A stretch of 64,000 bases of DNA from Alcanivorax sp. (GCA_013823245.1 PNLU01000005.1:1-64000); one strand, 5' to 3'. Positions 18,439 through 46,277 are shown, counted from the stretch's first letter. Numbers and translations: made by a program. The notes: generated from the letters alone by a model not told the origin.

Positions 18439-18690
18439 CTGACGGCCGTGCCAGCCGACGAACGGTCATCCACCCGAGCCTGGTGTTCATTGGGTGATAC
18501 TTATTTATTCTCTTTTTTATCAAAGAGATAGCGGATGGTCTGGCGCTAACACCGGAAAATGTAACGGTGGTTGTTGGTTTTGTATCTGTAGTGTTAACGT
18601 AGCCATGTCCTGATGGCATGTCGTCGGGACAAGGCTCGACCCAAAGCCAATAACAACAAGCGCCGTGCACGCGCGATGGAGATAATAACG

Positions 18691-19802: not shown

Positions 19803-20615
19803 ATGCTTGAGGCAATTCTGGGCGTGGCCCTGATCTTTTTTGCTGTCAATCAGGCTGCTGTCGTGGAGGAGTATCCGCGCGGCTACGTCTATTACGAGCA
19901 CCCCACGCATCAGGGCCCCGTGGCTGAGCGGGATATTGCCCCGAAGCCGGTTTCCGAATTCCGCTATCGCAATGTCGTGCGCCAGGCGTATGACTATTCC
20001 TGTGGTTCCGCTGCGCTCACCACCATCCTCAACCACTACCTTGGCCGTCAGTTCGAGGAGCGGCAGATCATGGAAGGTCTGCTGCGGTTCGGGGAAACCG
20101 AGCGAATCGTCGAACGCCGGGGCTTCTCCCTGCTGGACATGCGTCGTCTGGCTACCGCCCTGGGCCACCCGAGTGCGGGTTACCGTGCCGAAATCAAGGA
20201 TCTGAAGACGCTTGACCACCCCGCGATCGTGCCGATCTCCTACGGGGGCTTCAAACATTTCGTGGTGTTGCGCGAATACCGTGACGGCCATATCTATGTG
20301 GCAGATCCGGCGCTGGGCAACATCAGCTTCACTGAAACCAAGTTCGAGGAAATCTGGGAACAGAATGTACTGTTCATCGTTTTCCCCAATGGCTTCGAAC
20401 CGCAGGAAGATCTCGCGCTCACCGAGTATGACCTCCGCATGATTGATGAGCAGACCATCAATCGTCTCGCTTTCCAGGAGTTTCCCGTCTTTACCCGCCC
20501 GATCGAGCAGTGGGCGGACAAGGCTGGCACCTTGCGGGCGGTACTGACTGAGGACGCGGAAGGGGTCGAGCGAGTGATCAATGTTCCCACGCGGACCTAC
20601 TTCCGCCGTAAATGA
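19803..20615 (+). CDS. filB: C39-family cysteine peptidase, FilB-like
   Basis: VVRQAYDYSCGSAALTTILNHYLG (Cys) and FKHFVVLREYRDGHIYVADPALG (His/Asp). Confidence 0.85.
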   Translation: MLEAILGVALIFFAVNQAAVVEEYPRGYVYYEHPTHQGPVAERDIAPKPVSEFRYRNVVRQAYDYSCGSAALTTILNHYLGRQFEERQIMEGLLRFGETERIVERRGFSLLDMRRLATALGHPSAGYRAEIKDLKTLDHPAIVPISYGGFKHFVVLREYRDGHIYVADPALGNISFTETKFEEIWEQNVLFIVFPNGFEPQEDLALTEYDLRMIDEQTINRLAFQEFPVFTRPIEQWADKAGTLRAVLTEDAEGVERVINVPTRTYFRRK

Positions 20616-21688
20616 GAATAACAAACAAGATGGACAGGCATATGATGTGTTTCCGGGGATGGTGCAGGCCCGCCGCAGCATGGCTGGCACTGGCAGGCAT
20701 GACGATGGGCGCGCCCTTGCTGGCGCAGGCAGACGACCGCGACACGGATGCAGCGCGTGCCGCCCTGCAGCAGCAGGAGGACGATGCCAGCGAAGAACGT
20801 AATCTGGAAGAAGTGTTTCAGGCGGCTGAACGGCAGTATTCGTTGCTGCGTTCGGGCAACATGGCGCTGAACTTCTCCGGCGATTACAGCTACTACCGTA
20901 ACGACCGCATCGATATTGCGATTGGCGACAATGGTAATGTCAGCCGTTTTCGCATTGAGAATGATGCGGAGCATTCGTTTGGAGCCTCGTTGTCGTTCGA
21001 TTACGGTATCTGGAACAACCTGACCTTCAATACACGGCTCCCGGTGCAGTACAAGTACGATACGCAGCGCGACACGCAGCAGGCATCGCTTGGCGATATC
21101 ACCTTCGGTCTGCGCTATCAGCCTTTCCCGGTGCGGCCGGGCGCTATCAACACCACCCTATACACCACGTTGTCCACAGCCACAGGTGACAGCCCCTACA
21201 CCATCGATCCCAACCGCGACCTGTCCAGCGGCAAGGGCTACTACTCGCTGGGTGGCGGCGTCAGCATGAGCAAGGTGGTGGATCCGGTGGTGCTGTTCGG
21301 TTCTGTGGGTTACACCATGGCTTTTGATGCGACAGGCCTGGACCAGAAACGCGGGCAGGATACCCTCAAGCGTGTAGAGCCCGGTGATAGCATCAGTTTC
21401 TCCATGGGTCTGGCGTACGCGCTGTCCTATGAGGTCTCGGTCAGCGCCAGTTACCAGCAGTCCTATAACTTCGTCAGCAAGTTCCGATTCGTGCGTGACG
21501 ATGAGCCATTTACGGCCAAGTCGGAAGACTCAACCTCCAGCATTCTCAACACCTCGCTGGGTCTGCGGACCTCCAGCAATCGCATCATCAATATCAGTTT
21601 TGGTTTTGGTCTGACAGAAGACTCTCCGGATGTCCTTCTTGGCATATCCCTGCCCATCGATATCAGCGGCCTGAAGCCCGGTGCCTGA
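20612..21688 (+). CDS. filC: outer-membrane transporter-like protein, FilC-like
   Basis: Signal peptide, coiled segment, then alternating beta-strand pattern (SFDYGIWNNLTFNTRLPVQYKY ... ISFGFGLTEDSPDVLLGISLPI); ATGA overlap with filB. Confidence 0.7.
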   Translation: MRITNKMDRHMMCFRGWCRPAAAWLALAGMTMGAPLLAQADDRDTDAARAALQQQEDDASEERNLEEVFQAAERQYSLLRSGNMALNFSGDYSYYRNDRIDIAIGDNGNVSRFRIENDAEHSFGASLSFDYGIWNNLTFNTRLPVQYKYDTQRDTQQASLGDITFGLRYQPFPVRPGAINTTLYTTLSTATGDSPYTIDPNRDLSSGKGYYSLGGGVSMSKVVDPVVLFGSVGYTMAFDATGLDQKRGQDTLKRVEPGDSISFSMGLAYALSYEVSVSASYQQSYNFVSKFRFVRDDEPFTAKSEDSTSSILNTSLGLRTSSNRIINISFGFGLTEDSPDVLLGISLPIDISGLKPGA

Positions 21689-21713: not shown

Positions 21714-23372
21714 ATGAAGAATAACAAGATAAAAAGCCTGGGACTGCTTGCAGGGCTGTTACTGGCCGGCACCGCCCAGGCACAGTTGGCCACCAACCTT
21801 GGCATTGATGTGCGTGCCATGAGTATGGGCCATGCCGTAACCGCTGATCCGCCGGGGATCATGTCCATCCACTTCAATCCGGCGGGTCTGGCGCGCCTGG
21901 ACGGTCGGCGCATGGACCTGCAGTTCCTGGGGGTGGATTTCAATATCGAGTCGGAGTACAGCGCACCGCCGGGCTATAACGTGTTCGGTTTTTCGGATGA
22001 CCCGATCATCTGTGCGGACGCACCCAACAATGGCTCGGATGTCTGTAACGATTTTCGTACCGGTCGCAGCACGATCAAGGGCGCGGCGCTTTACCTGCCT
22101 ATCGTCAATGACATTGTTGATTTGCCGCCTGGTCCACTGCTGGCGGGTCCCATTCCCGCGTTCGCGATCAAGCCTCCCGGCTCCAAGTTCACGTTTGCCA
22201 CGGCGACTTACCTGCCCATGGCGGCAGGTTTTTACCGCGACGAGAATGACCCCGGTAACTTTATGGGCAAACGCGTTGCCCTGACACGCATGACGTACCT
22301 GTCGCCTTCCGTGGGTTATCAGGTGAATGACACCTTGTCGATCGGGGCCTCCATCGGCTTCTCTTACCAGGGTGTGGGTCTTGAAACCGACATGCGCGCG
22401 CCGAACGAGCTGCTGGGCTTTACCCGCATTATTGACGAGAGCCTGTGTGCGCCTTTCAAGGGCGAGTCCAACTTTGCGCTGGATTTCGTGCTGTTCGGGA
22501 TCTGTAACCCGCAGGAAGGGCTTGGCCCGTTCAAGAACCTGGCCTCCATTGATGTGCAGATGGATCAGCGCTTCAGTCCGTCGTATAACCTTGGCATTCT
22601 GTGGGAGCCGAAAGACTGGTTCGCCTGGGGTGCGGTTTGGCATGCCCCGGTGGATGTGAACCTGCGCGGCAAATACAGGATCCAGTACTCCAATGCCGCT
22701 CAGGAAACCATCAACGGTATCGGCAGCAGCCCCACGGGCGCCATCGCGCTGGCGGTGCTGGGTATCCCCAGCAGCGTCGGCGCCGAGGATGTCGGCATGG
22801 TGAGCATGGATCTGACGATGCCGGCGCACTTCCAGACCGGGATCAAGATCAACCCCACTGAGCGCTGGCAGTTCAACGTGGATGCCGTATGGGTGGATTA
22901 CAAGCAGTGGGACGCCTTCACCATGGACTTCGACGGCCCCAATGCAGCGCTGGCGTTGGCGCGGCTGTTCTCGCCGGAGTCCACGCCCACACGACTGAGC
23001 TTGCCGCTCAATTATCAATCCACCTGGAACCTGGCATTCGGCACCGAGTATGCTGCCACCGACCGTCTGCGTCTGCGCGCTGGCTTCGAACCGCGCGCCT
23101 CGGCCATCCCGGATGACCGCCGGGCGCCGCTGGTGCCGATCAATGAGGCCCGTTATTACAGCCTCGGGCTGGGGTATCAGTGGGACAAGGACACCGAGAT
23201 CGACCTGGCCATCGCGACCCTGCGCAGCCGTGATAGCATTCCGGCCAATACCAGTTGTGCCGCCAACTGTACCGGCATCAACAACGTGATCTACAACCCC
23301 TACGCGGGACTCGACATTGAAACCAAGGCAACCATCAACATGGTCGGCATGGCGTTCCGCACCCGCTTCTGA
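21714..23372 (+). CDS. filD: OmpP1/FadL-family outer membrane protein, FilD-like
   Basis: AQLATNLGIDVRAMSMGHAVTADPPGIMSIHFNPAGLARLDG; C-terminal GMAFRTRF. Confidence 0.8.
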   Translation: MKNNKIKSLGLLAGLLLAGTAQAQLATNLGIDVRAMSMGHAVTADPPGIMSIHFNPAGLARLDGRRMDLQFLGVDFNIESEYSAPPGYNVFGFSDDPIICADAPNNGSDVCNDFRTGRSTIKGAALYLPIVNDIVDLPPGPLLAGPIPAFAIKPPGSKFTFATATYLPMAAGFYRDENDPGNFMGKRVALTRMTYLSPSVGYQVNDTLSIGASIGFSYQGVGLETDMRAPNELLGFTRIIDESLCAPFKGESNFALDFVLFGICNPQEGLGPFKNLASIDVQMDQRFSPSYNLGILWEPKDWFAWGAVWHAPVDVNLRGKYRIQYSNAAQETINGIGSSPTGAIALAVLGIPSSVGAEDVGMVSMDLTMPAHFQTGIKINPTERWQFNVDAVWVDYKQWDAFTMDFDGPNAALALARLFSPESTPTRLSLPLNYQSTWNLAFGTEYAATDRLRLRAGFEPRASAIPDDRRAPLVPINEARYYSLGLGYQWDKDTEIDLAIATLRSRDSIPANTSCAANCTGINNVIYNPYAGLDIETKATINMVGMAFRTRF

Positions 23373-24255
23373 CAGACGCGGCGGGTGCGCAGCCCTGCTC
23401 GGACTGTTTGGCCTGCTGATGCTGGCTGGCTGTACCACGTCGGAAGGTGAGCGCGGCCTTTACGTCTATATGGACGAGCAGGGCAACCTGGTGTCCGGCG
23501 AGGTCGAACGGCCGGTGACCCGCAGCCGCCCTGACGCACCGGCAGCGCCGGAAGCGGACGATGCGGACCTGGAGGCAGTGCGCGAGGACAAGGCCAAAGG
23601 GGAGAACCTGACTCCGGAAGGGGTCGACGACAGCGACCGCTTTATTACCTGGTACGACGCGGAAGGGCGTTTGATCCGCGAACCGGTGGATTTTGTCGCG
23701 GCTCGCCGGGCGGCGGCCGAGCGCGATCCGGGCTTCCAGGAGATCGAGGAACCCGGGGAGGAGGGCGACGAGGGTGGATTTATCGAGACCGTCACCCCGA
23801 TCAGCGCGGCCTGCTGTCGGGATATGCCCGAGCAGGCGCTGACCCTGCGCGGTGGTCGTGAGCAACTGCTCCGGTTGGCACCGGGCACGACACCCCGCCT
23901 GCAGGTGGGGGCCCGAGGCTATCCTGCCCAGATCGTGCGACTGGCCGACGATGTCGTGGCGGTGGAAGTGATCAGCTACAAGGGCCGCGAGGGTTACATA
24001 CACCCGCAGTTGCTGGTGCTGGACGAGAACGCCACGCCGGTGCTGCAGGTCAACAGTGTATTTACACGGCGCTACCCGGAAACCTGGTCGCGCTACGGCT
24101 ATATCACGGGAACTCTGCCCCGGGAGCCGGGTCAGCGCTATCTGGTGGTCTATCTTGGCTACACCGATGGCGACACACCGGGTTTCGTCCCGGAAAGTGA
24201 CAGCGCCCTGCGTGAGCAGGGTGAGGTGCTGCTGCGCGGCGTGCGTCGCCGCTGA
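23317..24255 (+). CDS. filE: lipoprotein, FilE-like
   Basis: Lipobox LLGLFGLLMLAGC; YVYMDEQGNLVSG and FITWYDAEGRLIREPVDF repeats; only a TTG start at the annotated 5' end, true start uncertain. Confidence 0.7.
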   Translation: MKPRQPSTWSAWRSAPASDRRGGCAALLGLFGLLMLAGCTTSEGERGLYVYMDEQGNLVSGEVERPVTRSRPDAPAAPEADDADLEAVREDKAKGENLTPEGVDDSDRFITWYDAEGRLIREPVDFVAARRAAAERDPGFQEIEEPGEEGDEGGFIETVTPISAACCRDMPEQALTLRGGREQLLRLAPGTTPRLQVGARGYPAQIVRLADDVVAVEVISYKGREGYIHPQLLVLDENATPVLQVNSVFTRRYPETWSRYGYITGTLPREPGQRYLVVYLGYTDGDTPGFVPESDSALREQGEVLLRGVRRR

Positions 24256-24338: not shown

Positions 24339-26435
24339 ATGACAAAAAAGACAGGCGCCACCACCGCGATCAGGACCTCTTCACGCCGCTGGCTGGCCGG
24401 TATGGCCGTAGTGCTGGGTGCCGCAGGGCTGGCCAGCTGTAACGGCGGCGAGGACTTCTCGGATGTGAATCTGCCAGGGTGCGCTTTCGGCGCCCAGTGT
24501 ACCGAGAACCTGGCCGGTAACCGGCTGGTGGAGCTGGTCGGCCCCCGTGTCGACAATCTGCGTTACCGCTGCGGCACTGGCAACAGTGGCTCGATCAGCC
24601 ACCTGCGCGACGAAGAAGTGGTGACGGCTGCCGGCATTCGGGTGCCCGCCTTTACGGCCGTGTGCCCCGCCAGCGCCCGGAAGCTGGAGTTCTTTGTCGG
24701 TAACGGTTTCTTCGACAGCAGCACGAATTCGCCTGGGCAGGTCAAGGTGATCGGGACCATGTTTTTCCCGACCACGTCCCTTCAGGTGCCGCAGGGTGCT
24801 ACTCCACCGGTGCTGAGCGTGACCCTGAATGATCTGGTCGAGTCGGCCCGCAGGGTCGCGATTGACGAAGATAGTGTACGAAATCGTGGGTTATTGCTGT
24901 CGGCGCTGGATAGCGATACCGACGATGACGTGATCTATATTCCCGACGAGTTGCATACTCTGGTGGGTAACCGCTTTGATGACCTGATCGGCAACCGCAG
25001 CCTGAATACGTCTGACGCCATCGATTTCAGAAATGATTTCCAGCCACTGCTGGATGCGCTGAATGAAGAGCTGGCGCTGGTTGAAGGTGATGAGGGATTT
25101 CATGAATTCCCTGACGATCTGATTGATTTCAACGAGCGTCTGCAGGCGGCCATGAATCTTTCCCGAGCGGGCTACTATTCCATGGGCTACAACGAGAACG
25201 AAGGGATTCTGGAATTCCAGGGGACTACGAAAGATCCTAAACTGTCCAGCTTGGGCCGCTTCGGCGCGAGTGTGCTTGTTCTGCCTTCTGGGAATGTTGT
25301 CGGGATGGGCTCAGCTTTGATCTCCGTAGACCAGAGCGAAGAGCGTGAAACCCGACGTGATGCCGTCATCGCTAACGGCACGTTGGGTGACGAGCTGAAT
25401 TTTGATGTGATATTCAGTGGTTTACTCCCGATAATAGAGGTGACGAGTCTCGAGCTGTCGGGCCGCATGCTCGGTGAGATCATGTACAACGGTATTGCTG
25501 GTGTTAGTGGTGCCGGCAACTCGGATGTGAATATCGATCAGCCAGATATGCCGTATCAACCTGATGTTGTAGCAGATTTCGGTCGCCTGACAGGCGACTT
25601 TGTGGGTGTAGATACTGAGGCCATGATCAATGACGCAGACGATCAGGCGCCCGGCTTGCCTGTGCGTGCGGCGCGCCAGCCGCGCAGCGTGGTTCAGCTA
25701 GACCAGGAAATTCTTGATCTTCTTGATGGCTCCCGCTATCTCATTACCCTCAAGCGCGGCTGCCGTGATGATGAACTAGATGCTGCCGGTTGTGATGAGG
25801 AAGATAATCAGATCAGCGAGGAGGAGGCCGAGTTCTATCCGCGCAGATTTGAGGTTATTGAGGCGGTTGACGGTACAAGCGAGAGCACTGTTGAGCTGAG
25901 GTTCAGCTTCGATTTTGAGACCGCCCGAAGGAACGGCGATGAAGGTAGTGGCGCCGAAAGTGTTTGTATTGAGATACGCGAGGATAATGGTAACGGCATC
26001 ATTTATGTAGGCCAGGACTATCAGTGCCCGCATGTTTCTTCAGAAGAGTATGCCGTGGGTTATGTAACCCGAACGACCTTTACGGAAGACGATGTTCCCG
26101 AGAGCGTTGGTATTGTTATGTACCTTGCCGCCGATGCAACGGGACATGATCAGCTTGGTACCCAGATCGAAGGAAGAATATCGCTGCTCGAGTGCTCTCG
26201 CCCGCTTTACCGTCTGTCGCAGGATAACTTCGAGTCGGGCATTCGAGCGAGCTGGGTCGATAATTACCTGCCCGTATTGATACAGTACGAGCTGCTTGAA
26301 GATAGTGAGTCGCATGATTTCGGCGATATGACTGACCCCAAGAATCAACGCCTGATTTCAAATGTTCAGGGCTTGGTTGACCTTAAGTTTGATCCAACGA
26401 GTCCAGGAACGGACGCCTTCCCTGCATGTGAATAG
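24339..26435 (+). CDS. filF: large exported protein, FilF-like
   Basis: Signal/lipoprotein-like N-terminus (GAAGLASCNGG), 698 aa, last gene of Fil-like order. Confidence 0.7.
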   Translation: MTKKTGATTAIRTSSRRWLAGMAVVLGAAGLASCNGGEDFSDVNLPGCAFGAQCTENLAGNRLVELVGPRVDNLRYRCGTGNSGSISHLRDEEVVTAAGIRVPAFTAVCPASARKLEFFVGNGFFDSSTNSPGQVKVIGTMFFPTTSLQVPQGATPPVLSVTLNDLVESARRVAIDEDSVRNRGLLLSALDSDTDDDVIYIPDELHTLVGNRFDDLIGNRSLNTSDAIDFRNDFQPLLDALNEELALVEGDEGFHEFPDDLIDFNERLQAAMNLSRAGYYSMGYNENEGILEFQGTTKDPKLSSLGRFGASVLVLPSGNVVGMGSALISVDQSEERETRRDAVIANGTLGDELNFDVIFSGLLPIIEVTSLELSGRMLGEIMYNGIAGVSGAGNSDVNIDQPDMPYQPDVVADFGRLTGDFVGVDTEAMINDADDQAPGLPVRAARQPRSVVQLDQEILDLLDGSRYLITLKRGCRDDELDAAGCDEEDNQISEEEAEFYPRRFEVIEAVDGTSESTVELRFSFDFETARRNGDEGSGAESVCIEIREDNGNGIIYVGQDYQCPHVSSEEYAVGYVTRTTFTEDDVPESVGIVMYLAADATGHDQLGTQIEGRISLLECSRPLYRLSQDNFESGIRASWVDNYLPVLIQYELLEDSESHDFGDMTDPKNQRLISNVQGLVDLKFDPTSPGTDAFPACE

Positions 26436-27578: not shown

Positions 27579-27597
27579 ATTGGGCAAGCGTTGAGCT

Positions 27598-29258: not shown

Positions 29259-29308
29259 TTGACCAACCACCTGATTCGATCAGGACCGATTCAAGCAGGA
29301 GAAGCAAC

Positions 29309-30436: not shown

Positions 30437-30518
30437 GGCCGGCAAACTCCCCGCCCCGGACGCAGGGCGGGGAGTGTTCCGAAGACCGCCCATTCATTCT
30501 TTCCGTACGAGCCAGGCC

Positions 30519-33110: not shown

Positions 33111-33112
33111 CC

Positions 33113-34332: not shown

Positions 34333-34516
34333 CCCCTCCATATCAACGACTACGCACGCCAAGTTAAACTTACCTTTCCTTTTTTGCTCTTTCTGTAATC
34401 TTTCTCCTGCAAAAAATGACCGAAATGTATGACAGCATTTTGTGCTGCCGGTCACACCAGTAATTCTCCTGTTTATTCATCCTCTGAGCTCCATCCATAA
34501 CGAGGGAGCGAAAATA

Positions 34517-34970: not shown

Positions 34971-36311
34971 GTGCATAACATGGTCAGGCCGTCCCTCCTC
35001 ATGCTTTGCCTTGCCCAATGCTGCATGTCGGCATCAGCCAGCATGGTGCCGCTTGAAGAATCCGAGCTCTCCGACGTATCCGGTAGCGGGCTGGCGCTGG
35101 GTTTCGAGGACTTGCGCGTGGTGATGTCGCCCACGGGCTATATCGAGGCCACCGGTGCCAATGTCCTGCCAAACCTGCCTTATAAACGTGCCGATGCCCG
35201 CTGGTATGGTGTCAGCCTGACTGCGGCTTCCAGTGCCGGGGGAGACGGCTATCACTTCGATGGCACACCTTGCGTGAGCAACGACATCAGTTGTCCGATT
35301 TCCGCACAGGGCTTTCTGGTACCCAACGACAACCCGCTGATTCTGCGGGTGTGGGATTATCAGGGCACCAGTAGCAGCGGACGGCAGTACCTGCGCCGTG
35401 ATGGCACGGGCACAGATGTACCCACCGTACTCGAACTGTTGTTCCCGGACTGGCATCAGCCTTTGAAAGGTGCCTTCTGGGGTGAGATCGCGGTGGGACT
35501 GGACCAGGGTATTGCCGCTGAAGGCGGTACCGCCAGCGGTCATTATCTGCAGAGCCTGACGATTCTGGATAACGTGTCGCTGGCCGGAACCAATGTCCGC
35601 TGGATGCAGTTCGATCAGCGCACCAACCCCTCAGCGGTCTCGGATACGACCTTCGGGCTCACCGCCAATCTGCGGATTACCGGTGACATGCGCTTCGCCG
35701 TCAACCAGGCGGAAGGCAGCGAAAACCGTTTGGGTATGGTGCCAAGCTTTACCCATCGGGAGGGGCTGTACTTTACCGATGTCGATACCTTCCTGCCGCT
35801 GGGCTCGCTGCACTATCAGGCACTGATTGGTGATCAGGTGCCGGGGGGCGGTGATTTTATCCTCGAGCTGACCGGTATCCCGAATGTCGAGGCGGTGTGG
35901 CAGGACTTCTATGCCCATGCCCCCGGAGTGGCCACGCATCTGGGCTACGAGCGCAACAATCGCCCGGAGCGCTACGGCGAGACGCACGGCCACTGGCGTA
36001 TCGGCGATCAGGACCCCTCGACCAATACCTGTATGTCCCCCGGTAATTGCCCCGGCCAGAGCGGTATTGTCTTCCGCTCGGCGGGCGAAGCGTCGACGTT
36101 CACGGTGTTCTCAGACCGCCCCAGCGAAAACATCAATGCCTGGGAGAGCAACTGTACCGGCGCGGATAGCTGCAACCCGCCGCCACGCCTCGATAATCCA
36201 CGAAACAGCACGGCCTACCATCAGGTCAACCTGGGTGACGTCAACGTGGAGGGCATCCTCATGCAGCAGCTGCGCATAACGACCTGCTCAACGGTTAACG
36301 GAGCCTGCTGA
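34971..36311 (+). CDS. cassette 1 protein A: exported protein, FilA-like N-terminal signature
   Basis: Signal peptide; MVPLEESELSDVSGSGLALGFEDLRVVMSPTGYIE; homologous to 40425 gene (EGLYFTDVDTFLPLGSLHYQ...GDFILELTGIPNVE). Confidence 0.75.
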   Translation: MHNMVRPSLLMLCLAQCCMSASASMVPLEESELSDVSGSGLALGFEDLRVVMSPTGYIEATGANVLPNLPYKRADARWYGVSLTAASSAGGDGYHFDGTPCVSNDISCPISAQGFLVPNDNPLILRVWDYQGTSSSGRQYLRRDGTGTDVPTVLELLFPDWHQPLKGAFWGEIAVGLDQGIAAEGGTASGHYLQSLTILDNVSLAGTNVRWMQFDQRTNPSAVSDTTFGLTANLRITGDMRFAVNQAEGSENRLGMVPSFTHREGLYFTDVDTFLPLGSLHYQALIGDQVPGGGDFILELTGIPNVEAVWQDFYAHAPGVATHLGYERNNRPERYGETHGHWRIGDQDPSTNTCMSPGNCPGQSGIVFRSAGEASTFTVFSDRPSENINAWESNCTGADSCNPPPRLDNPRNSTAYHQVNLGDVNVEGILMQQLRITTCSTVNGAC

Positions 36312-36964
36312 TGACGAGACGATACCGCTCGATAACGATGGCAGCGGTTCTTACTGTGACAGCTTCCATCAGCAATGCCATGCAGCCTCTGGATGATGCC
36401 GCGCTGGCTGCCGTGTCAGGGCAGGAAGGGGCAGTACTGGAGATCAGTTTGCGCTGGAATACGGACGCACATGGTGCGCCGCGCACCGAACTGCCGGAAG
36501 CAGAGCGCCGTTTTGCCTTGCGTTATGACGGGCGCCCGCATGACTGGCTGGTGGCGACGGATTTCTACCTGTATCTGGATATTCCTGCCTTGAGTATCGA
36601 CTCCGGAGACGGCCCGACATTGGCCGAATACCAGTCGATGCCAGCCTATAACGCCCCTGGCAAGTCATCAAAACTTGGCAGCTTTGATCCATACGGCACG
36701 CCACTTGTCGAGCTCGGCTTCAGCGAAGGGCTGTATCTGGGCATGAACAATGGCATAGCAATAACCCGCGACATTCTTAGCGGCGGCGACATTCAGGAGT
36801 ATGGCTGGGAACGTCAAGACCTGACCCCCTTTGTCGGTATTCGTATCGGCGATTCAGCGAATCAGCCGGGCTCTGCAACACCTGTTGTGGGGACTGGCAC
36901 CGGGCCGACGCATTTGCGTCTGGACGGCACGGTGCACTTCTTCGGTTTCGGGGCTGAGCTATGA
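36311..36964 (+). CDS. cassette 1 protein B: exported protein with MQPLDDAALAAVSGQEG signature
   Basis: Signal peptide then MQPLDDAALAAVSGQEGAVLEISL; TGATG stop/start overlap with A. Confidence 0.75.
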   Translation: MTRRYRSITMAAVLTVTASISNAMQPLDDAALAAVSGQEGAVLEISLRWNTDAHGAPRTELPEAERRFALRYDGRPHDWLVATDFYLYLDIPALSIDSGDGPTLAEYQSMPAYNAPGKSSKLGSFDPYGTPLVELGFSEGLYLGMNNGIAITRDILSGGDIQEYGWERQDLTPFVGIRIGDSANQPGSATPVVGTGTGPTHLRLDGTVHFFGFGAEL

Positions 36965-38055
36965 AACGACTTTCGACTATATTGCTGATCTCCTGGTTTT
37001 TTCCTGCGCATGCATCGGTGCCTGAAGGGTTTCAATTGCTGGATGATGAAGCGTTGGGCGATATCCACGGCCAAGCCATGTTTGTATCGGATTATCGTCG
37101 TGGTAGTGCAGACGACGGTGTGAGTGACAATGACTTCGGTTTTTATCGTCTGATGCTCAATGCCAATCTCGAATTCAATCTAAACATTGACAAGCTGCAA
37201 CTCGGCTGCGGCGGCGTCAACGAGGGTATCCGCTCCGGGTGTGATATCGATATTGACTATCTGCGCTTGATGGGTAGCTTTCAGGGTACTGGTAGCAACC
37301 CCTTGCAACCGCAGGGGGCAGGGCAGGCTGGTGACCCGGTGGAAAGCCTTTTCAGCTTGCTGAGGCCCTATGTGGAGTTCGCAGTGACTAATCCTGAGCA
37401 GCATGCGTTCAGGGAGATTGCCGGTATCAAGATAGGATCGCAGCAGGGGGATGGCTTCCTAAGTATCGGCCGTTATGACACCGGCTTGCCGGGTTGCTCC
37501 AATCCGCCTAACGATCCGAACTGCCATATGGGTATCAATCAGTTCAGCGGCAACATGGATGTTTTCATGCAAGGTGAAGTAGCACTCAGGATATGCACTC
37601 TGCCGCTTATCTGTGCGCCCGTCACCGGGGACCTTGAGTTCAGCCAGAATCAACAGGTAGTGGGCACGCGTATGCGGTCACCGGTGTTCGCGGTTCCAGC
37701 CAGTGGTGATCTGAATCTGTTTGGTGGTATACCAGTGACGATCTTTTCGTTGTTCCAGTCCGATCTGCGGATGATCCATGGCATCAAACTGGACAATACG
37801 CAGGACTTTTTCATGTCGTTCCAGCGTGAGCGGATTACTTACCCCGCTTTTGAGGAGGGCACTTGGGCAGATGTGCCTGCCAACGCAGGGTGGTGGATGA
37901 ACCTCCCGGGGATCGAGTTGACCGGTCTGGAGGTGGCATACCAAACCAATCTGTTTTCTGCAGTGGGTTCCCTGTTTGGTACCACTCAACTGGTCAATTA
38001 CGACGTGGGGCAGCGCCCGGCCAATAACTGCTGGGGAGCGGCACAGTTTTGTTAA
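36961..38055 (+). CDS. cassette 1 protein C: exported protein, C-terminal NCWGAAQFC
   Basis: LLDDEALGDIHGQAMF; LNANLEFNLNIDKLQLGCGG...CDIDIDYL; ATGA overlap with B. Confidence 0.75.
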   Translation: MKRLSTILLISWFFPAHASVPEGFQLLDDEALGDIHGQAMFVSDYRRGSADDGVSDNDFGFYRLMLNANLEFNLNIDKLQLGCGGVNEGIRSGCDIDIDYLRLMGSFQGTGSNPLQPQGAGQAGDPVESLFSLLRPYVEFAVTNPEQHAFREIAGIKIGSQQGDGFLSIGRYDTGLPGCSNPPNDPNCHMGINQFSGNMDVFMQGEVALRICTLPLICAPVTGDLEFSQNQQVVGTRMRSPVFAVPASGDLNLFGGIPVTIFSLFQSDLRMIHGIKLDNTQDFFMSFQRERITYPAFEEGTWADVPANAGWWMNLPGIELTGLEVAYQTNLFSAVGSLFGTTQLVNYDVGQRPANNCWGAAQFC

Positions 38056-40175
38056 GCATTCCGCGTTACCTCATGGTTCTGGGCTGCTTTGCCACCTCAC
38101 ACGCAGTGGTGGCGATGCAGCCGCTGGATGACGACGCCTTGGGCGCCGTGAATGCCCGCGACGGCCTGGTGCTGAATATCGGTTCGGAGGAGGGTATTCG
38201 CGCCGAGAGTATTCGCTGGCAACTTGATGCTGGCAGCACCCTGGGCGATTACGGTGTCTCCGGGCCCACAGCGGCGGACAGCCTTGAGTCATCGCTGTTG
38301 CTGGAAGATCTTCACTGGCATGGTATCGCCCCGGACGGCACCAGCGCGGATGCGCCGCCGCTTCGCGTGATGACGTCACTCGATGTTGGCCAGAAACCCG
38401 GTGGCCCGGCGTTGGGCATCAAGGTGGATATCGAGCGCGCCCGGCTGGCCATTGAAGATGTGCGGCATGACGGTCTGCCGGGCAGCAGCCTTGGCAGTCT
38501 GGCCCTGGACATGCCGCTGGATTTTGAATTCAGCGGCATGCTGGATCACAGCCGTGACGATGCCCGCCTGCGCGTGGCCACTGAGGACGGCACCTTGTTC
38601 TACCGGCAGGGCGCACCGGGTTCACCGGAACTGCTGGTGGATGAACTGACCTTCCGCATTGACTTCGATCAGGGCACGGTCGGCATGGACGATCAGGGCC
38701 TGGTGGTGTCTGCACCGCAATCCGAGTTTGTCGTGTTCTTCGACCTGAAGCACCGTGGCGACGTGGGCAGCGATCCGCTGGATCATTTCAATCGCAGCGA
38801 TGCCCGGGGCATCCTCGGGTTTGGCTGGGAAGGCACTGTGGAGGATCTGCTGATCCGTCTGGGCGGTGGGGGTGCCTGGTATGGCGATGACCCCGATAAC
38901 CGGAGCGAAGGCCTGCAGTTGCTGATCCAGCATGACCATGGGGCCGATTATGCCTGGGTAGTGGGTGAGGCAGGCAGCACTGGCATCGTCGACCCGGACG
39001 ATGCCGCCGTGTTTGATGCACCGCTGACCCTGGTGCGCTTCGATAACTGGCAACGCCTGGATGGCGCGCCGCTGGGCAGCACCGGGACGCCTTCGTTCCG
39101 GTTGCCGGTCACTGTCGACGTGCTCAACGCAGGGCAGGGGACCGGCGGCCTTTGCTTTGGCGCCGATGTGGCCCCGGAGGCGGCTGCCTGCGCGGCAGGC
39201 CAGCATGTGGAAATCCCCGCACGGGACGGTGCGTTGGCGCTGATGGTGCGCGACGCGTTCCTGCATGCCTATCCCACTCGGGTGTATGTGGACGAGGGGG
39301 GCGATTACGTGCCTGGTGGTCCGGTGGGGCCGGAAGACACCGTTCTGAACTGGGGGCTGATCGTGACCCTCGGGGACATGGATGCGGATGTGCTGCTGTA
39401 CCCGGGCGGCCCGAATGGTGACCGGGGGCTGCACCTGGACGCGGTGGTCACCATCCAGTCCCACGGCAGTACCGAACCCGGCTCGAACGGTTGGCAGCAG
39501 AACACCCATCTGATGATTGCCGACACCGACCCGGACGTGATGCGCGGTATCGGCCTGATCAATGCCGACATTTTGCTGACGGTCGAGCAGCTGTATCTGG
39601 AAGTGACTGAAGCCGGCATCAGCCTGCACAGCGACCAGGGCCTGCGTTTTCAGGTGGATGGCCTGTTCGGCGGTGGCGACCTGGATAACCTGGAGCGCCC
39701 GGCCCTGGTGGAAGGCTGGCGTCAGAGCATCAATCTGGAAGCCGAGAACATCCGCCTGGATATTGCCCCCGGCGAAGAGGTGATGGTGGTGGCCGATGGC
39801 AGCCGGATCGGCAATACCTACCTGGGATTCTCCGGGCACATCCGGCTGGATCAGGGCGGCGGCAGCTATATCTCGCTGGCTGAGCCGAACTACCCCGAGA
39901 TCGATCTGCGGCTGGCCAACCTGACGGGTGATATCGCCATTGTTGAGGGTCGTCTTGACCTGCTGTCCGCCAACCAGGATCCGCATAGTGTGGATAACCC
40001 GGAGCCGCGTCTGGTGATTGCAGCAGACACCTTGCTGGGCCGCAGTGCGGGGCTGGCTATCCCGGGCAGCGCCGAGCCTGCGCTGCGCGGCAGCGTGCAA
40101 TTTGGCGGGGACACGCTGATGGACATGGTGATTCCGGGGGGCTCGCTTGATGTCAGCCTGACGTTGCGCCAGTGA
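38049..40175 (+). CDS. cassette 1 protein D: large exported protein, MQPLDDDALGAVNARDG signature
   Basis: AMQPLDDDALGAVNARDGLVLNIGSEEGIRAESI; TTG start overlapping C, ATG alternative at 38073. Confidence 0.75.
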   Translation: MLSIPRYLMVLGCFATSHAVVAMQPLDDDALGAVNARDGLVLNIGSEEGIRAESIRWQLDAGSTLGDYGVSGPTAADSLESSLLLEDLHWHGIAPDGTSADAPPLRVMTSLDVGQKPGGPALGIKVDIERARLAIEDVRHDGLPGSSLGSLALDMPLDFEFSGMLDHSRDDARLRVATEDGTLFYRQGAPGSPELLVDELTFRIDFDQGTVGMDDQGLVVSAPQSEFVVFFDLKHRGDVGSDPLDHFNRSDARGILGFGWEGTVEDLLIRLGGGGAWYGDDPDNRSEGLQLLIQHDHGADYAWVVGEAGSTGIVDPDDAAVFDAPLTLVRFDNWQRLDGAPLGSTGTPSFRLPVTVDVLNAGQGTGGLCFGADVAPEAAACAAGQHVEIPARDGALALMVRDAFLHAYPTRVYVDEGGDYVPGGPVGPEDTVLNWGLIVTLGDMDADVLLYPGGPNGDRGLHLDAVVTIQSHGSTEPGSNGWQQNTHLMIADTDPDVMRGIGLINADILLTVEQLYLEVTEAGISLHSDQGLRFQVDGLFGGGDLDNLERPALVEGWRQSINLEAENIRLDIAPGEEVMVVADGSRIGNTYLGFSGHIRLDQGGGSYISLAEPNYPEIDLRLANLTGDIAIVEGRLDLLSANQDPHSVDNPEPRLVIAADTLLGRSAGLAIPGSAEPALRGSVQFGGDTLMDMVIPGGSLDVSLTLRQ

Positions 40176-40177
40176 AG

Positions 40178-40194
40178 TGTTACGACAGGTAACA
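40178..40194. promoter_or_regulatory. perfect palindrome TGTTAC-GACAG-GTAACA upstream of cassette 2
   Basis: tgttacgacaggtaaca read directly; related half-sites upstream of filA and filB. Confidence 0.5.
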
Positions 40195-40424
40195 GTTTGT
40201 AGCGGCAGAATTGTTCATGCGGGCCCTGCTGGCCCGAAACGGAGCAAAAAAGGAACAAAAGCTGATGTAACGTATTGATTTAAAAGGTTTCGACATACGA
40301 ATATTGCCCCATTGGGTGCGCACCTGTAGCCTGGTTGCATAAATGTGGTCGGGCCGTTGTTATGCCTGAGTCGCCCGGCCCGTACAAGCACGCCGTATAA
40401 CGACTACAAGAACGAGGCATAACG

Positions 40425-41780
40425 GTGCGTATTTTGGGTTCCCCGGGGGCATTCCGCCATTTCCTGTATACCGTCCTGCTCGGTGCAGTGCTTTTGCCTG
40501 CGTCGGGTTTTGCCATGTCTGCGCCTGGGGGCATGGTGGCCCTTGAGGATGATGAGATGGCGGGGGTCAGCGGCGCCGGACTCGCTTTCGTGATGGATGA
40601 CTTCAGCATGCGCTGGGCGCCAACCAGTTATATTGAGCTGACTGGGGCGACTCCGGATCCTGCAGCGCTGGATGAGGGGTGGCGGCGCGGCGATGCCCGT
40701 TACTACGGTTTGTCCATTACGAATGGTGGTATTGCGGGTGCCGACTGGTACGGTAACGGCTGTAGCGGTAGCGCGGCTTTTGGGAACGAGGCGTTGGCTT
40801 GCCCGCTGGGCATCGATAATAACTACGGCATTACCTCGTTGGCTTCCATCTACGATCCTTATGTGCTCCGTGCCTACCAGTACAGTGGGCACGACTACAC
40901 GGGCCAGTACCGCGACGACCCAAGCGGTACGAATCAGATGCCTACAGTGATGGAATTGATCGGCCCCAGTTATACCGACCCTTGGCGCTGGGCCTTCTGG
41001 GGCGAACTGGAGGTGGATCGGGAAAACAATGTCTCTGCCATTGGCGCGAGCAATAATAGTGTGGTCGGTGGTGGCGGCGCGGATTTTCTGCAAAGCCAGA
41101 CCATTATTCACGGCAAGCCCACCACAATGGGTGTTTATGACGATGTAACGAACACTTGGCTTGAAGCACCCAAGCCCACCATCCTGCGCCTGATGCGCAC
41201 CACTGGGCAGGGTGCCGAAGCAGACACCTTTGGTATTACCTACCAGAGCGCGCTCTCTGGCGACTTCCGCTTCTCCGTGCGGCAAACCGCTAATTCACCA
41301 GACCTGCTGCACACGGTACCGGACTTCGACGACAAAGAAGGGATGTACTTTAAAAATGTAGATGCTTTTTTGCCCCTGGGGGTACTTCATTATCAGACCA
41401 TCAACTTTGATGCTGTGCGTGATGGCAGCGGCAATGCTACTGGTGACTTTGTTATCGAGCTGACCAGGATCCCCAATATTCCTCATATCTACAATCATTT
41501 CTATTGTGGGGCTATTGAGAATAGCGGTGACTGTGCCACGACGAATGGCGTTCTTGATTCTCCCAACGAAGAAACCCGTGGGTATGTGCGCTGGGGGGAT
41601 TTTACGGGGGTGAATATGGCGACGGGAGCCGGTTTGCCTACAGCTGATTCCGTAACTAACGGTATCTACTTCGTCGGTGGGGATGTCGGCAACGAGCAAG
41701 TCACCAATATCGGTATTTCACGCATCGAAGGCATGCGTATCCATCACCTCAAGATCACCACCCTGGGGGCCGCGCCATGA
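40425..41780 (+). CDS. cassette 2 protein A': exported protein, paralogue of 34971 gene
   Basis: MVALEDDEMAGVSGAGLAFVMDDFSMRWAPTSYIE; EGMYFKNVDAFLPLGVLHYQ...GDFVIELTRIPNIP; GTG start. Confidence 0.75.
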   Translation: MRILGSPGAFRHFLYTVLLGAVLLPASGFAMSAPGGMVALEDDEMAGVSGAGLAFVMDDFSMRWAPTSYIELTGATPDPAALDEGWRRGDARYYGLSITNGGIAGADWYGNGCSGSAAFGNEALACPLGIDNNYGITSLASIYDPYVLRAYQYSGHDYTGQYRDDPSGTNQMPTVMELIGPSYTDPWRWAFWGELEVDRENNVSAIGASNNSVVGGGGADFLQSQTIIHGKPTTMGVYDDVTNTWLEAPKPTILRLMRTTGQGAEADTFGITYQSALSGDFRFSVRQTANSPDLLHTVPDFDDKEGMYFKNVDAFLPLGVLHYQTINFDAVRDGSGNATGDFVIELTRIPNIPHIYNHFYCGAIENSGDCATTNGVLDSPNEETRGYVRWGDFTGVNMATGAGLPTADSVTNGIYFVGGDVGNEQVTNIGISRIEGMRIHHLKITTLGAAP

Positions 41781-42535
41781 TGATGTCTACTCGCATATTG
41801 CCTGTGCTGGTTTGTGTTCTCCCCCTTGGTTTACATGCTGCGGGGCTGCAGCCCCTTACGGAGCAGGAGATGGGTGCGGTGACCGGGCAGGAGGGCGTAC
41901 TGGTCAGCCTGGAGTATTACTACAACAGCATCCCTCCCCACGAAGGCAGTGGCAATGAAGGCCCGGGCAATACCGATATCGGCGCCGCTCATGCGGATTG
42001 TGAGGGTTTGGCCAGCCCCAATTGCCGCCTCGGCGTGCAACTGGAAAATCGTACTGACGAGTGGCTGGTATTCAAAAACGGTCATGCCTCTTTGGTGATC
42101 AACCGCCTGAGTCTGGATGCTTCCAGATTGAGCGAGGCATCGTCAGCCACGGCAATGACAGCGCGTAACTGGGATAAGTTTCGTGATGAAGGTGGCGTCT
42201 GTCTGCTTGGCTCAGGCAACTGTACAGACGCCTACCTGAACGATATGCCCGCCGTTAAAGCCCATTACCCTGGCACTGGCGCAGGCAGTTATAGTTATGA
42301 TCCAGACACACGTCATGGCGTCAGCAGCGGCTATAACGACGTTCGTTTCGGTATGTATTTTGAAGGTCTGGCTGTGGAAAGCAACACGGCGGACGCACAA
42401 AACACGGCGGCGGACGTACAGAATGGTTTTATGCAAAATGCCAATGGCTCCTTCATGGGGGGTAGCATCGCCGACAACAATGGCCACCAGGCCATGATTA
42501 ATTTTGGTGGTAACTTCTTCATGTACGGATTTTGA
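41777..42535 (+). CDS. cassette 2 protein B': exported protein, paralogue of 36311 gene
   Basis: LQPLTEQEMGAVTGQEGVLVSLEYYYNS; ATGA overlap with A'. Confidence 0.7.
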   Translation: MMMSTRILPVLVCVLPLGLHAAGLQPLTEQEMGAVTGQEGVLVSLEYYYNSIPPHEGSGNEGPGNTDIGAAHADCEGLASPNCRLGVQLENRTDEWLVFKNGHASLVINRLSLDASRLSEASSATAMTARNWDKFRDEGGVCLLGSGNCTDAYLNDMPAVKAHYPGTGAGSYSYDPDTRHGVSSGYNDVRFGMYFEGLAVESNTADAQNTAADVQNGFMQNANGSFMGGSIADNNGHQAMINFGGNFFMYGF

Positions 42536-44868
42536 CTATGGCACAGCGCAAAGCAATGAAAAATGCAGCCACGCTTAGCCTCCTTGGTGGCCTGGCAATC
42601 AGTGCGTCTGCTTTTGCCATGCAGCCTCTGGACGACAGTGAACTGGCTGGCATCAACGGGCGGGATGGCCTGGCGTTCAATATTCAAGCCCCCTCTGGTT
42701 GGCACGCTGATTCGCTGGTGCTGGAGACCGATGGTGGTACGGCCTATGCATCGCGGCTGAGTGTCAACGATATCAGTCTCACCGGGATTAACGCCGATGG
42801 TAGCCTTGCTGGCGCCAGCGCTGCTGCCGCCACTTTTGCACTGGATGTCGGTAGCAACAGTGCTGGCGAGGGCATGCTGGGAATCTCGCTGTACACCGAC
42901 AGTCGCATTCGCCTGCGGGCCGACTCCCTCACCATACCGACCGGCAACAGCACAGATTCCATGGGGACCTGGGCCTTCGATTTTGAGGGGGGCATCGAAA
43001 TGCAGAACCAAGGCTTGTTCAACATGGATTATGATCAGGCCCGGCTCTATGGCGAAATCAATAATGCGAACCTGTTCTATCGTCAGGGCGATGACAGCAA
43101 TGCCTGGATGGTGATGCGCGATTTCAACCTCAAATGGGAAGTACCGGAAGGCACCATCGGTATCGATAGCCAGGGCATTGTGCAGCGAACCGGCACCCCG
43201 GGTTCACCGGCTGGCACATTAGCAGAATCTGACTTGATCAACTTGACGCTGGATTTTGAACTCGCCTTGGGTCGTTCAACGGCTATAGGCAATCCGGATC
43301 AGGAATTCGTGATCCAGGAGTACTCTCCCGGTGATCAGGCTGATGAACAAAACACTCACGGGCTGATGCACTTCGGTTGGGATGGCAGCATCCGCGACGC
43401 GGAGGTCAGATTCATGGCCGGTGGCGCTTGGGCAGATGGTGATGATCCCTACAGCGAGTATAGCCAGGGCTTACGCTTCAGCTCGCAATGGGACTACGTC
43501 ACCAGCGACGACCCAGTGGGCGAGGAGTTTGTCTGGCGGCTGGGCGAAACCGCTACCGTCGGCAGCAGCGATCTGTCCAGCGTTAAATTCGAGCTGGGCG
43601 ACTGGAGAATGTGGGGCACTCGAACTGCGGCGAAACCCTCGCCTCATTACTTTCCACTGATCGCCATTGATGTGGTGAACGGCGGTAGTGGTGATATCGC
43701 GCCGCATACACTGGAATGGCTGTGCCGGGGCACCAGTGGCTGTGAAACGGTAGAAATCGGCATTGAGCCCAGCGACGATGGTGCTCTGGCCGTGCTGGTG
43801 CGTGACGGCCAGCTGCAGGCTTATTCCAACAAGGTGCGGTTTCTGGAAACCGATGCCGATGGTACCACCACAACCCGTGAATTCGACTGGGGTCTTATCT
43901 ATTCCCTGGCGAACCTGGACGCCAATATCTATCTATACCCGGATGGTGATGGGGCAGATGCCGGGCTCCGTGCCGACCTGCTGGTCCGTTCACAAACCTT
44001 TGACGCTGATGACCCCACCGTGCAAGGTAATAATTGGGATCACGGCACTCATCTGATGATTGCAGATACCGAGGCGCAGATGGGTATTGGCTTCATCGAC
44101 TCCAGCTTTATCGTTGCAGGTAAAGACGTTCGTATAGCCTTGAAAACCGCCGATCGAGACGGGGCAGGGGAAATCACTGATTTCTATTCCGGCGGTCTCG
44201 ACTTCTACTCCCCCGATGCCCGCTTCAACTACCGCGCGACCTTCGGCGGCGGTCTGCTGCCGGAACACGATGATTACGGTGACACCAGCAAACCGCAAAC
44301 CGTTGTCGGTGCCGACCTCGACATGAACCTGGAAGGCATGGTTAACTTGCGCTTCTCTCCGGCTGACCCGAACTCTCCGGCCGGCAGCAACTACCTCGGC
44401 TATAGCGGTGCTTTGCGCCTGGAAGGCGGCGATCGAACCAGTAGCATTATTAACGGCGTGACCACCCTGGAGACATGTGGAACCACAGGTGACCAGAGTT
44501 GCGGCACCTATCTGTCCCTGGCCGAACCCAGCCAGCCAGACGCCGCTGTTAAGCTGGCCAACATCCATGGTGATATCGCGTTTGAGAACGGCAAAGTGGA
44601 TATTATCGGAAGTGGAGAACGCGGTAACAGTGGCCTTGATGCTAACCCGGCCCTCAAGATATCCAACAACATCCTGGTTGGTGAAGCAGCGGCATCAGGA
44701 ACACAAGACTGGAATGCCCGTATGAATGTCGGCAACTTCGGCCAGCCGATGATGATCGATAACCTCATGCTTGGCCCGGACAATTTGGGCAGCATTGCCG
44801 TTCCCTCTGCGCGTATTTACTCCAGTATTACTCTGGAGCCGCAAAGCGCAGCGCTTCCGTTCCCATAA
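42532..44868 (+). CDS. cassette 2 protein D': large exported protein, paralogue of 38049 gene
   Basis: AMQPLDDSELAGINGRDGLAFNIQAPSGWHADSL; NLFYRQGD...GTIGIDSQGIV; GTHLMIADT; TTG at 42532 or ATG at 42538. Confidence 0.75.
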   Translation: MTMAQRKAMKNAATLSLLGGLAISASAFAMQPLDDSELAGINGRDGLAFNIQAPSGWHADSLVLETDGGTAYASRLSVNDISLTGINADGSLAGASAAAATFALDVGSNSAGEGMLGISLYTDSRIRLRADSLTIPTGNSTDSMGTWAFDFEGGIEMQNQGLFNMDYDQARLYGEINNANLFYRQGDDSNAWMVMRDFNLKWEVPEGTIGIDSQGIVQRTGTPGSPAGTLAESDLINLTLDFELALGRSTAIGNPDQEFVIQEYSPGDQADEQNTHGLMHFGWDGSIRDAEVRFMAGGAWADGDDPYSEYSQGLRFSSQWDYVTSDDPVGEEFVWRLGETATVGSSDLSSVKFELGDWRMWGTRTAAKPSPHYFPLIAIDVVNGGSGDIAPHTLEWLCRGTSGCETVEIGIEPSDDGALAVLVRDGQLQAYSNKVRFLETDADGTTTTREFDWGLIYSLANLDANIYLYPDGDGADAGLRADLLVRSQTFDADDPTVQGNNWDHGTHLMIADTEAQMGIGFIDSSFIVAGKDVRIALKTADRDGAGEITDFYSGGLDFYSPDARFNYRATFGGGLLPEHDDYGDTSKPQTVVGADLDMNLEGMVNLRFSPADPNSPAGSNYLGYSGALRLEGGDRTSSIINGVTTLETCGTTGDQSCGTYLSLAEPSQPDAAVKLANIHGDIAFENGKVDIIGSGERGNSGLDANPALKISNNILVGEAAASGTQDWNARMNVGNFGQPMMIDNLMLGPDNLGSIAVPSARIYSSITLEPQSAALPFP

Positions 44869-44879
44869 GGATAATAAAG

Positions 44880-46277
44880 ATGAGAGCGATCGAAATAATA
44901 GCATGTAGAGGCGCTAAAGAATTGGCTGCTTTCTTTCGTGTCGGGCGCATGAGCTGCTTTCTCCTGGTCAGCTTAAGCTTGATCTTCGGTGGTGTATTTA
45001 CACCGGCTGTGGCAATGATTGAGCTTGATGAAGATGAGCTATCGTTGATCTCGGGCCAGGCATTAATGCAGATGGAGAAGCTGGCGGGGAGCGGAATATC
45101 TAGTGATATTACGTTCTACAAAGCAGGGCTGGATGTCATGCTCGAGCTGAATATGAATATTGAAAAGTTGCAGCTTGGATGCACGGGCAACCAAATTAAC
45201 GGCCAATATTGTGATATTGATATTGATCATCTGAGTCTCAGCGGACCGGAGGATTGCCCGGGAGGCCGTCCTGGATGCTCTGCACAATTGCTTAGGCCTT
45301 TCTTCCAATTTGCCATAAAAAATGACGATCAGCCTGCTTTTCGCGAGGTCGTAGGATTACGTTTGAGCGCAGAGCAAGCTACTGGCCTTTTGACGGCAGG
45401 CTATCAAGATGATGGTATGACCCGCGATGAAAGTCGCAGCGGCATAAATAGTCTCAGCGGCTACATGGAGCTGGCATCAGCCACGGGCACGGGCATGACC
45501 GCGCAACGTAACATGAGCTATTCCGATACGAACATGGCTCTACAAGGGGTGGTGGAGATGTGTATTGGTTTTGTGATAGGGAGTAGCTGTATCGGTGGTT
45601 GGGGTCCGATTAACTATACTTCTACAGATTACAATATTCGAGTAAACCCGGCATTGGCGAGCTTCGTGACTGCGCCTACTTCAATATATGGTAAGCGTAT
45701 GACGTCGGCTCGCCTCACCGCAGAGGCGGACGTTGGTAATATCAGCATTCACTGTCCCGATGGGCCGAGTGCCACAAATTGCTTGGTGGCCACAGCACTG
45801 GGCTTGCCTTTGCGGCAAGGGGTCTCAGGTTATATTTCAGGGGTCAAAGCGGCAGTAGAGTTCGAGCAGGCCTTGAATCTTTTCCATAATATACCGGTGA
45901 ACAACCCCTTCTCCCTTTCTATGCAACAGCAGAGCGTGCTGTGGCCAGACGCGGCAGTTCCAGCAGAGGCGGGCTGGTGGATGGCGTTCGAAGACCCGGT
46001 GGAAATTGGTGATGTATCAGCTGCTGATCCCATCGTCATTACCAATGATGTACTTGCTCAGCTTGTCGCGCCTATTAATGCGGTTCTTGGTGCGCCTCCT
46101 CATCCTCGTTGTAGCATTACTGGGTGCCTGTTTGGAACGGTTATTAATGTGGGGCAGATTAACTTGTCTCCCTATTTTAGCAATCCGGCGAATTATGTGA
46201 ATATGCCGCTGAGTGATCTAAAGCTATCAGCGCAGAACGTAACGCCGAATTGCTGGGGTGGTGCGAGGTTCTGTTAA
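44880..46277 (+). CDS. cassette 2 protein C': exported protein, paralogue of 36961 gene
   Basis: MIELDEDELSLISGQALMQ; LELNMNIEKLQLGCTG...CDIDIDHLSLSG; C-terminal NCWGGARFC. Confidence 0.75.
   Translation: MRAIEIIACRGAKELAAFFRVGRMSCFLLVSLSLIFGGVFTPAVAMIELDEDELSLISGQALMQMEKLAGSGISSDITFYKAGLDVMLELNMNIEKLQLGCTGNQINGQYCDIDIDHLSLSGPEDCPGGRPGCSAQLLRPFFQFAIKNDDQPAFREVVGLRLSAEQATGLLTAGYQDDGMTRDESRSGINSLSGYMELASATGTGMTAQRNMSYSDTNMALQGVVEMCIGFVIGSSCIGGWGPINYTSTDYNIRVNPALASFVTAPTSIYGKRMTSARLTAEADVGNISIHCPDGPSATNCLVATALGLPLRQGVSGYISGVKAAVEFEQALNLFHNIPVNNPFSLSMQQQSVLWPDAAVPAEAGWWMAFEDPVEIGDVSAADPIVITNDVLAQLVAPINAVLGAPPHPRCSITGCLFGTVINVGQINLSPYFSNPANYVNMPLSDLKLSAQNVTPNCWGGARFC

Follow-up and report, generated by a model that had tools for sequence, protein, structure and literature searches.

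Eight consecutive open reading frames (ORFs), all on the plus strand and tightly packed, occupy positions 34971 to 46277 of the 64,000-nucleotide (nt) stretch analyzed here (the window), which comes from an oil-degrading marine bacterium of the Alcanivorax group (Alcanivorax sp., GCA_013823245.1 PNLU01000005.1:1-64000). An earlier note on this DNA had described them as two four-gene cassettes of exported proteins, A-B-C-D (cassette 1) and A'-B'-D'-C' (cassette 2). Its coordinates were confirmed (Table 1), as were the general secretory (Sec) signal peptides at the N termini and the stop/start overlaps between neighboring genes, which measure 1 nt for A/B (TGATG), 4 nt each for B/C, A'/B' and B'/D', and 7 nt for C/D. 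Gaps of 11 nt and 249 nt separate D' from C' and D from A', respectively. The latter gap holds a hairpin of 11 pairs with a short T-rich tail, a possible terminator; promoter and terminator scans gave results at or below chance, and such hairpin sites were no commoner than chance. A fil operon (18685 to 26435), complete if filE and filF are assigned by position, lies 8.5 kb upstream of cassette 1, with prp (methylcitrate) genes between them.

Table 1. Genes and other features of the window, and the third cassette of the same genome (positions on locus L001)
Feature	Position	Strand	Length (amino acids)	Leader	Remarks
Cassette 1, A	34971..36311	+	446	MVPLEESELSDVSGS	
Cassette 1, B	36311..36964	+	217	MQPLDDAALAAVSGQ	DUF6160, E 8e-7
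Cassette 1, C	36961..38055	+	364	FQLLDDEALGDIHGQ	Cys-containing
Cassette 1, D	38049..40175	+	708	MQPLDDDALGAVNAR	TTG start; N-terminal ~140 residues FilA-like
Cassette 2, A'	40425..41780	+	451	MVALEDDEMAGVSGA	
Cassette 2, B'	41777..42535	+	252	LQPLTEQEMGAVTGQ	
Cassette 2, D'	42532..44868	+	778	MQPLDDSELAGINGR	DUF6160, E 8.5e-7; FilA model, E 3e-10
Cassette 2, C'	44880..46277	+	465	MIELDEDELSLISGQ	
filA	18685..19539	+	284		Fil pilus subunit homologue; NF050077 full length, E 9e-43; same Sec and double-glycine-type leader, motif score 36.8
filB	19803..20615	+	270		C39 peptidase; hydrophobic N terminus (predicted periplasmic); NF050078, E 2e-91; FapD model, E 2e-34
filC	20612..21688	+			Outer-membrane channel related to FapF; NF050079, E 2e-106; FapF model, E 6e-21
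filD	21714..23372	+			OmpP1/FadL-family outer-membrane protein; NF050080, E 3.5e-232; Toluene_X, 238 bits
filE (by position)	23317..24255	+			Lipoprotein-like N terminus; syntenic ORF, also in relatives; no family match
filF (by position)	24339..26435	+			Lipoprotein-like N terminus; syntenic ORF, also in relatives; no significant family match
Third cassette, A''	3719-5527				
Third cassette, C''	5539-6834				
Third cassette, B''	6844-7488				
Third cassette, D''	7478-9574				
Small ORF	26540-26947	-			No Pfam match
Nucleotidyltransferase	26889-27587	-			Polbeta/NTP_transf_2
GntR regulator and prp genes	27685-34291	+			
GIY-YIG domain gene	34442-34831	+			
Hairpin	40329-40354	+			
NTase_sub_bind/HepT-like gene	46437-46781	-			

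The earlier note had paired the genes of the two cassettes as paralogues. BLASTP gave 36.5% over 345 amino acids for A/A' (E 2e-55), 36% over 206 for C/C' (E 2e-26), 28% over 813 for D/D' (E 1e-75) and 24% for B/B' (E 6e-6). With the first 50 residues removed, z-scores against shuffled sequences were 61, 40 and 93 for A, C and D, so similarity past the N-terminal motif is significant in these pairs; the value for B was weak (3.6). By these comparisons, homology extends over most of the protein in A/A', C/C' and D/D', and there the pairing stands. Homology of B and B' beyond the N terminus is only weakly supported for the direct pair, which is clear only at the N terminus itself, and it is profiles built with relatives that place the two in one family.

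A survey of gene neighborhoods bore out the expectation that the four genes form a conserved unit. Among the loci retrieved, Alcanivoracaceae contributed 42 complete A+B+C+D clusters, arranged in five ways (ABCD, 23; ABDC, 9; ACBD, 7; DABC, 2; BACD, 1). A third cassette, missed by the earlier note, is present in the same genome on contig C2 (L001:3719-9574) in the order A''-C''-B''-D''. The named full-length relatives, all Alcanivoracaceae, belong to Alcanivorax sp. PBR18_bin07 (72% over D), A. limicola, A. quisquiliarum and A. jadensis T9, the last with a cassette at L007/L071. Across 58 genomes (that of the window and its relatives), A, C and D are present together in Alcanivoracaceae and jointly absent from other members of the family. 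The trees of the four genes are congruent: their pairwise distances are correlated (r 0.39 to 0.85, with 0 of 1,000 permutations reaching any of these values), indicating that the genes travel together. Larger profiles extended the survey to three further families of the order, two with cassettes of C-A-B(-D) type (L116-L121) and one with B-C-D (L122), and to a genome outside the order that carries C-A-B (L125). In the trees, cassette 1 is nearest to the cassettes of L059 and L051, and cassette 2 to those of L005, L056 and L071. As each is closer to cassettes of other species than to its neighbor, a recent tandem duplication of cassette 1 into cassette 2 was rejected, and we regard the two as old paralogues. 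What survives of the earlier proposal of an assembly duplicated as a unit and then diversified is the paralogy of the cassettes, without the recent tandem copying; a filament is plausible, given that D resembles FilA.

Profile-profile comparison of A, B, C and D aligned 32 to 61 columns, essentially the N terminus and mostly ending at a single motif. Indeed, only the first ~40 residues are common to all four families, and these comprise a Sec signal peptide and, behind it, the motif [LM]-x-[DE]-x-E-[LM]-x-x-[VI]-x-G-[QART], numbered here from -12 to -1. The motif occurs in all 189 distinct A-D proteins collected and never exceeds the threshold beyond residue 250 of the same proteins. Its residues are L/M at -12 (96%), D/E at -10 (99%), E at -8 (48%), L/M at -7 (99%), V/I at -4 (90%) and G, otherwise A, at -2 (88% G), while -1 is Q in 50%, A in 21%, R in 15%, G in 2% and S in 1%, T also occurring. 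Just upstream is a hydrophobic presequence with an AxA-like site, most commonly spaced exactly 3 residues before L-12, and a second conserved Gly stands just past the motif. Against the gathering cutoff of 27 bits for DUF6160 (PF19657), B (29.8) and D' (29.6) score above and B' (26.6), D (22.7) and A (18.6) below, and C, C' and A' gave no match to this family; of 64 leader segments, 52 match DUF6160 by the leader alone. D alone extends the likeness to FilA beyond the shared N-terminal segment (probability 97%, 105 columns). The FilA-type N terminus that the earlier note had recognized is therefore present, and it is common to all four families, which had gone unnoticed. We consider it, as a portable leader of Sec plus double-glycine type that ties the cassettes to the upstream fil machinery, the central feature of the locus and the one that the earlier description left incomplete.

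In the crystal structure of a C39 peptidase with its leader, V-4, L-7 and L-12 occupy a hydrophobic groove, and cutting follows GG, GA or GS (PMC6363468). The register of our motif equals that of C39 leaders position for position (L-12, L-7, V-4 and G-2, with canonical spacing), and because the groove holds these residues we read the register as that of a double-glycine leader. The 64 leader segments were compared with the 43,686 curated models of NCBIfam and Pfam, with shuffled segments as a control. Besides FilA/DUF6160, the segments matched mainly double-glycine leader families, namely bacteriocin_sig (9 members) and mersacidin (6), with 1 or 2 segments each matching VP1, lichenicidin, class IIb bacteriocin, type-A lantibiotic, lactococcin and ComC. 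Three unrelated models (PEP-CTERM, DUF1127 and DUF1858) were also matched. The E-values are individually weak (best 0.02 to 0.5) but recurrent, and no shuffled segment matched any double-glycine leader family.

The fil operon encodes a peptidase of this class. The genes filA-filB-filC-filD are adjacent and in order (18685 to 23372), with near-full-length matches to NF050077-NF050080 that all fall below the curated cutoffs. FilB matches Peptidase_C39 (75 bits), its nearest solved structure is 6mpz, a "double glycine motif protease" (E 3.5e-7), and its catalytic Q-Cys, His and Asp motifs are intact (QAYDYSCG, KHFVV and ADPALG), kept in relatives and aligned with those of 6mpz. A periplasmic location is predicted from its N terminus and by analogy with FapD, a peptidase that works in that compartment and depends on its Cys (PMC5557850). 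Neither A-D nor FilA matched the Fap subunit models of NCBIfam. Between this genome and G001/G005, FilB, FilC and FilD are 84 to 99% identical, and FilA, FilF and cassette 1 A, C and D 40 to 89%. Across the family the order fil-prp-cassette is found repeatedly, and in most FilB-positive genomes a cassette gene follows filB on the same strand at a distance of 13 to 18 kb. Two genomes (G200 and G067) carry filB-filC with no filD detected, which suggests that FilB-FilC is the core pair.

The leader and FilB track each other, with few exceptions, in genome sets drawn from Alcanivoracaceae, Gammaproteobacteria (243 genomes) and the phylum (379), as counted by profile searches. Among 36 Alcanivoracaceae genomes, leader matches were found in 20 of 20 FilB-positive genomes (5 to 18 each) and 3 of 16 FilB-negative ones (G011, G014 and G020), with a marginal fourth (G034; one match, E 0.005); Fisher's p was 2e-7, or 1e-6 with G034, although these p-values, like those below, ignore phylogeny and the sampling is phylogenetically clustered. 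The genome of the window yields exactly 13 leader matches, one for each of the 12 cassette genes and one for FilA. In the 243 Gammaproteobacteria, FilB scores above 200 bits in 5 genomes and at most 130 bits in the rest, and those 5 are exactly the genomes with DUF6160 (p 1.5e-10). All 9 strong-FilB genomes of the phylum set, two of them shared with the gammaproteobacterial set, carry DUF6160 (p 1e-16), and 2 phylum-set genomes have DUF6160 without FilB (G471, weakly, and G401). When 30 chosen genomes were searched with the leader profile, 12 of 12 with strong FilB were positive, as were 2 of the other 18 (G037 and G401). Same-genus genomes with only distant FapD-like C39 matches were leader negative, so a link of the leader to C39 peptidases in general was rejected. 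Within single genera (g241 and g29), FilB and the leader are present or lost together, which is a better argument than the p-values.

The leader also behaves as a portable tag in G200, a distant gammaproteobacterium with one strong FilB, paired with FilC, and 16 leader matches, mostly of 100 to 180 amino acids and spread over many contigs. Past the leader, only 5 of 91 pairs among the 14 proteins compared are related, and this is the behavior of a sorting signal. G200 (L127, L134, L136-L147) offers a compact model for the pathway. We lean slightly toward the view that DUF6160 is not a domain but a sorting leader, a Sec plus double-glycine signal that would route many unrelated proteins, from those of ~100 amino acids in G200 to surface proteins of 700 to 800 amino acids in the Alcanivorax window, via FilB-FilC. 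If this is true, Fil would be a general Gram-negative secretion pathway with predictable substrates rather than a single pilus.

Cassette conservation, the shared leader on unrelated bodies, its match to C39 leaders, the intact FilB motif and the co-occurrence are consistent with the notion that a Fil-type export pathway, itself little studied and running from Sec to FilB to FilC, carries the eight proteins as cargo; we assign this reading a probability of roughly two in three. The Sec signal peptide would carry A-D over the inner membrane, and signal peptidase would cut at the AxA site. The new N terminus would be a leader of ~15 residues ([LM]-12, [DE]-10, E-8, [LM]-7, [VI]-4, G-2) of the type that C39 peptidases recognize. 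FilB, predicted to be periplasmic, would bind this leader and probably cut at or near its G-x end, and the body would leave through FilC, a FapF-like outer-membrane channel. Outside the cell the four products would act together, most likely as fiber or coat subunits, a function suggested by the resemblance of D to the pilus subunit FilA. Since Fil fimbriae cover cells of Acinetobacter Tol 5 grown on triacylglycerol (PMC3498257) and the filD product is of the FadL family, contact with oily substrates is a reasonable, if tentative, guess at what the products do outside the cell.

Several observations weigh against this proposal, the residue at -1 most of all. Characterized C39 peptidases need Gly, Ala or Ser at -1 (PMC6363468), and B, C and D mostly have Q or R there; A-type sites (GA and GT) fit better, Ala occupying -1 in 36 of 49 family A proteins. 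The mismatch may reflect a displaced cut, a different FilB S1 pocket or binding without cleavage; if there is a cut, its exact bond is uncertain. The Fisher p-values take no account of phylogeny. G014, a draft that is 96% complete, has cassettes and no FilB match; neither fil nor prp lies in the stretches read (G014:C32 and C44; L049, L094 and L095), and fil was either lost or unassembled, or its role was taken by another C39 protein (L047). G011, G020, G037 and G401, mostly incomplete genomes, are likewise leader positive without strong FilB. The predicted structure of A was unusable (predicted local distance difference test [pLDDT] score of 44), that of D (mean pLDDT of 63, almost only strands) matched no entry of PDB or BFVD significantly, and sequence searches for solved relatives of A-D gave no credible match.

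The residue at -1 also bears on an alternative in which the shared N terminus is an assembly or targeting motif kept on the mature protein, for example for docking to FilC or to a neighboring subunit, with FilB acting on another target. The predominance of Q and R, poor for known C39 cleavage, would be explained in this way, as might the second conserved Gly just past the motif, and mass spectrometry data on Fap favored FapE or FapF over FapB/FapC as the FapD target (PMC5557850). We nevertheless consider a retained motif unlikely: register and spacing fit C39 leaders residue by residue, the other leader families matched were mainly of that class, and the motif is also found on small, mostly unrelated G200 proteins, unlike a subunit-interface motif. 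The cassettes might also encode surface or periplasmic proteins with a vertically inherited leader, linked to fil only by neighborhood and shared ancestry. A conserved fil-prp-cassette order could alone keep such a linkage, and the sampling is phylogenetically clustered; yet the third and many other cassettes are far from fil and still follow FilB presence, FilB and leader are present or lost jointly within g241 and g29, and the G200 leader proteins lie on many contigs, which makes this quite improbable. We find it hardly credible that A-D form no fibers and instead remain in the periplasm or outer membrane, as beta-rich handlers of lipid or hydrocarbon linked to FilD: the almost all-beta, long-stranded prediction for D, weak and nonsignificant fold matches that include BPI/LBP-type lipid binders, the FadL-family filD product and the Tol 5 fimbriae on triacylglycerol (PMC3498257) would suit it, but no structural match is significant, the D model is of low confidence, and D shares 105 aligned columns with FilA.

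Neither the Fil operon nor Fap secretion is new, and FilB is already annotated as a C39 peptidase by NCBI. The cassettes share the FilA/DUF6160 N terminus with the putative Fil pilus system of Acinetobacter (filABCDEF; NF050077-NF050080), which has the same filA-D order, and ~140 residues of D are FilA-like; they differ from it in that the bodies of A, B and C lack similarity to FilA and the genes stand apart in units of four, of which this genome has three. The Fap amyloid system of Pseudomonas uses the same Sec route, a C39 peptidase (FilB resembling FapD) and an outer-membrane channel (FilC resembling FapF). Unlike Fap proteins, which lack canonical C39 sites (PMC5557850, PMC6173800), every predicted Fil substrate has a C39-type leader, and amyloid repeats of the FapC type were not noticed here, where no formal repeat search was made. 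The double-glycine leaders of C39 ATP-binding cassette transporters (bacteriocins, ComC and lantibiotics) have the same L-12, E-8, L-7, V-4 and G-2 and a peptidase with the same catalytic motif; here, in contrast, the leader stands behind a Sec peptide, the peptidase is stand-alone and of exported type, the cargo measures 100 to 800 amino acids, and Q, R, A or T usually stands at -1 in place of G. As in PEP-CTERM-like sorting, one short tag is borne by many unrelated proteins and tracks one processing enzyme (G200), but the Fil tag stands at the N terminus and its presumed processing enzyme belongs to the C39 cysteine peptidases. In open-access PubMed Central, we found no report of the FilA/DUF6160 N terminus as a double-glycine-type leader behind a Sec signal, of a leader tracking FilB, of four-gene leader cassettes or of FilB processing. 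Papers on amyloid secretion in Pseudomonas describe the target of its stand-alone periplasmic C39 peptidase, FapD, as undetermined (PMC5557850, PMC6173800). Our analysis names likely targets for this protease class, making the FapD-target question directly testable, and renders a substrate list predictable from each genome sequence. A likely role follows as well for DUF6160 and for four unnamed families in hydrocarbon-degrading and other Pseudomonadales.

Among the neighboring genes, a GntR regulator and the prp genes fill the region between fil and the cassettes, and fil and prp also adjoin in another family of the order (L128 and L129). A GIY-YIG domain gene separates prpF from cassette 1 and has the same place in several relatives. 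Between filF and prpR are the nucleotidyltransferase gene and the small ORF; the pair looks like an MNT-type toxin-antitoxin and may have been inserted here, filF and prpR being close together in G001 (L050). The NTase_sub_bind/HepT-like gene lies directly downstream of cassette 2.

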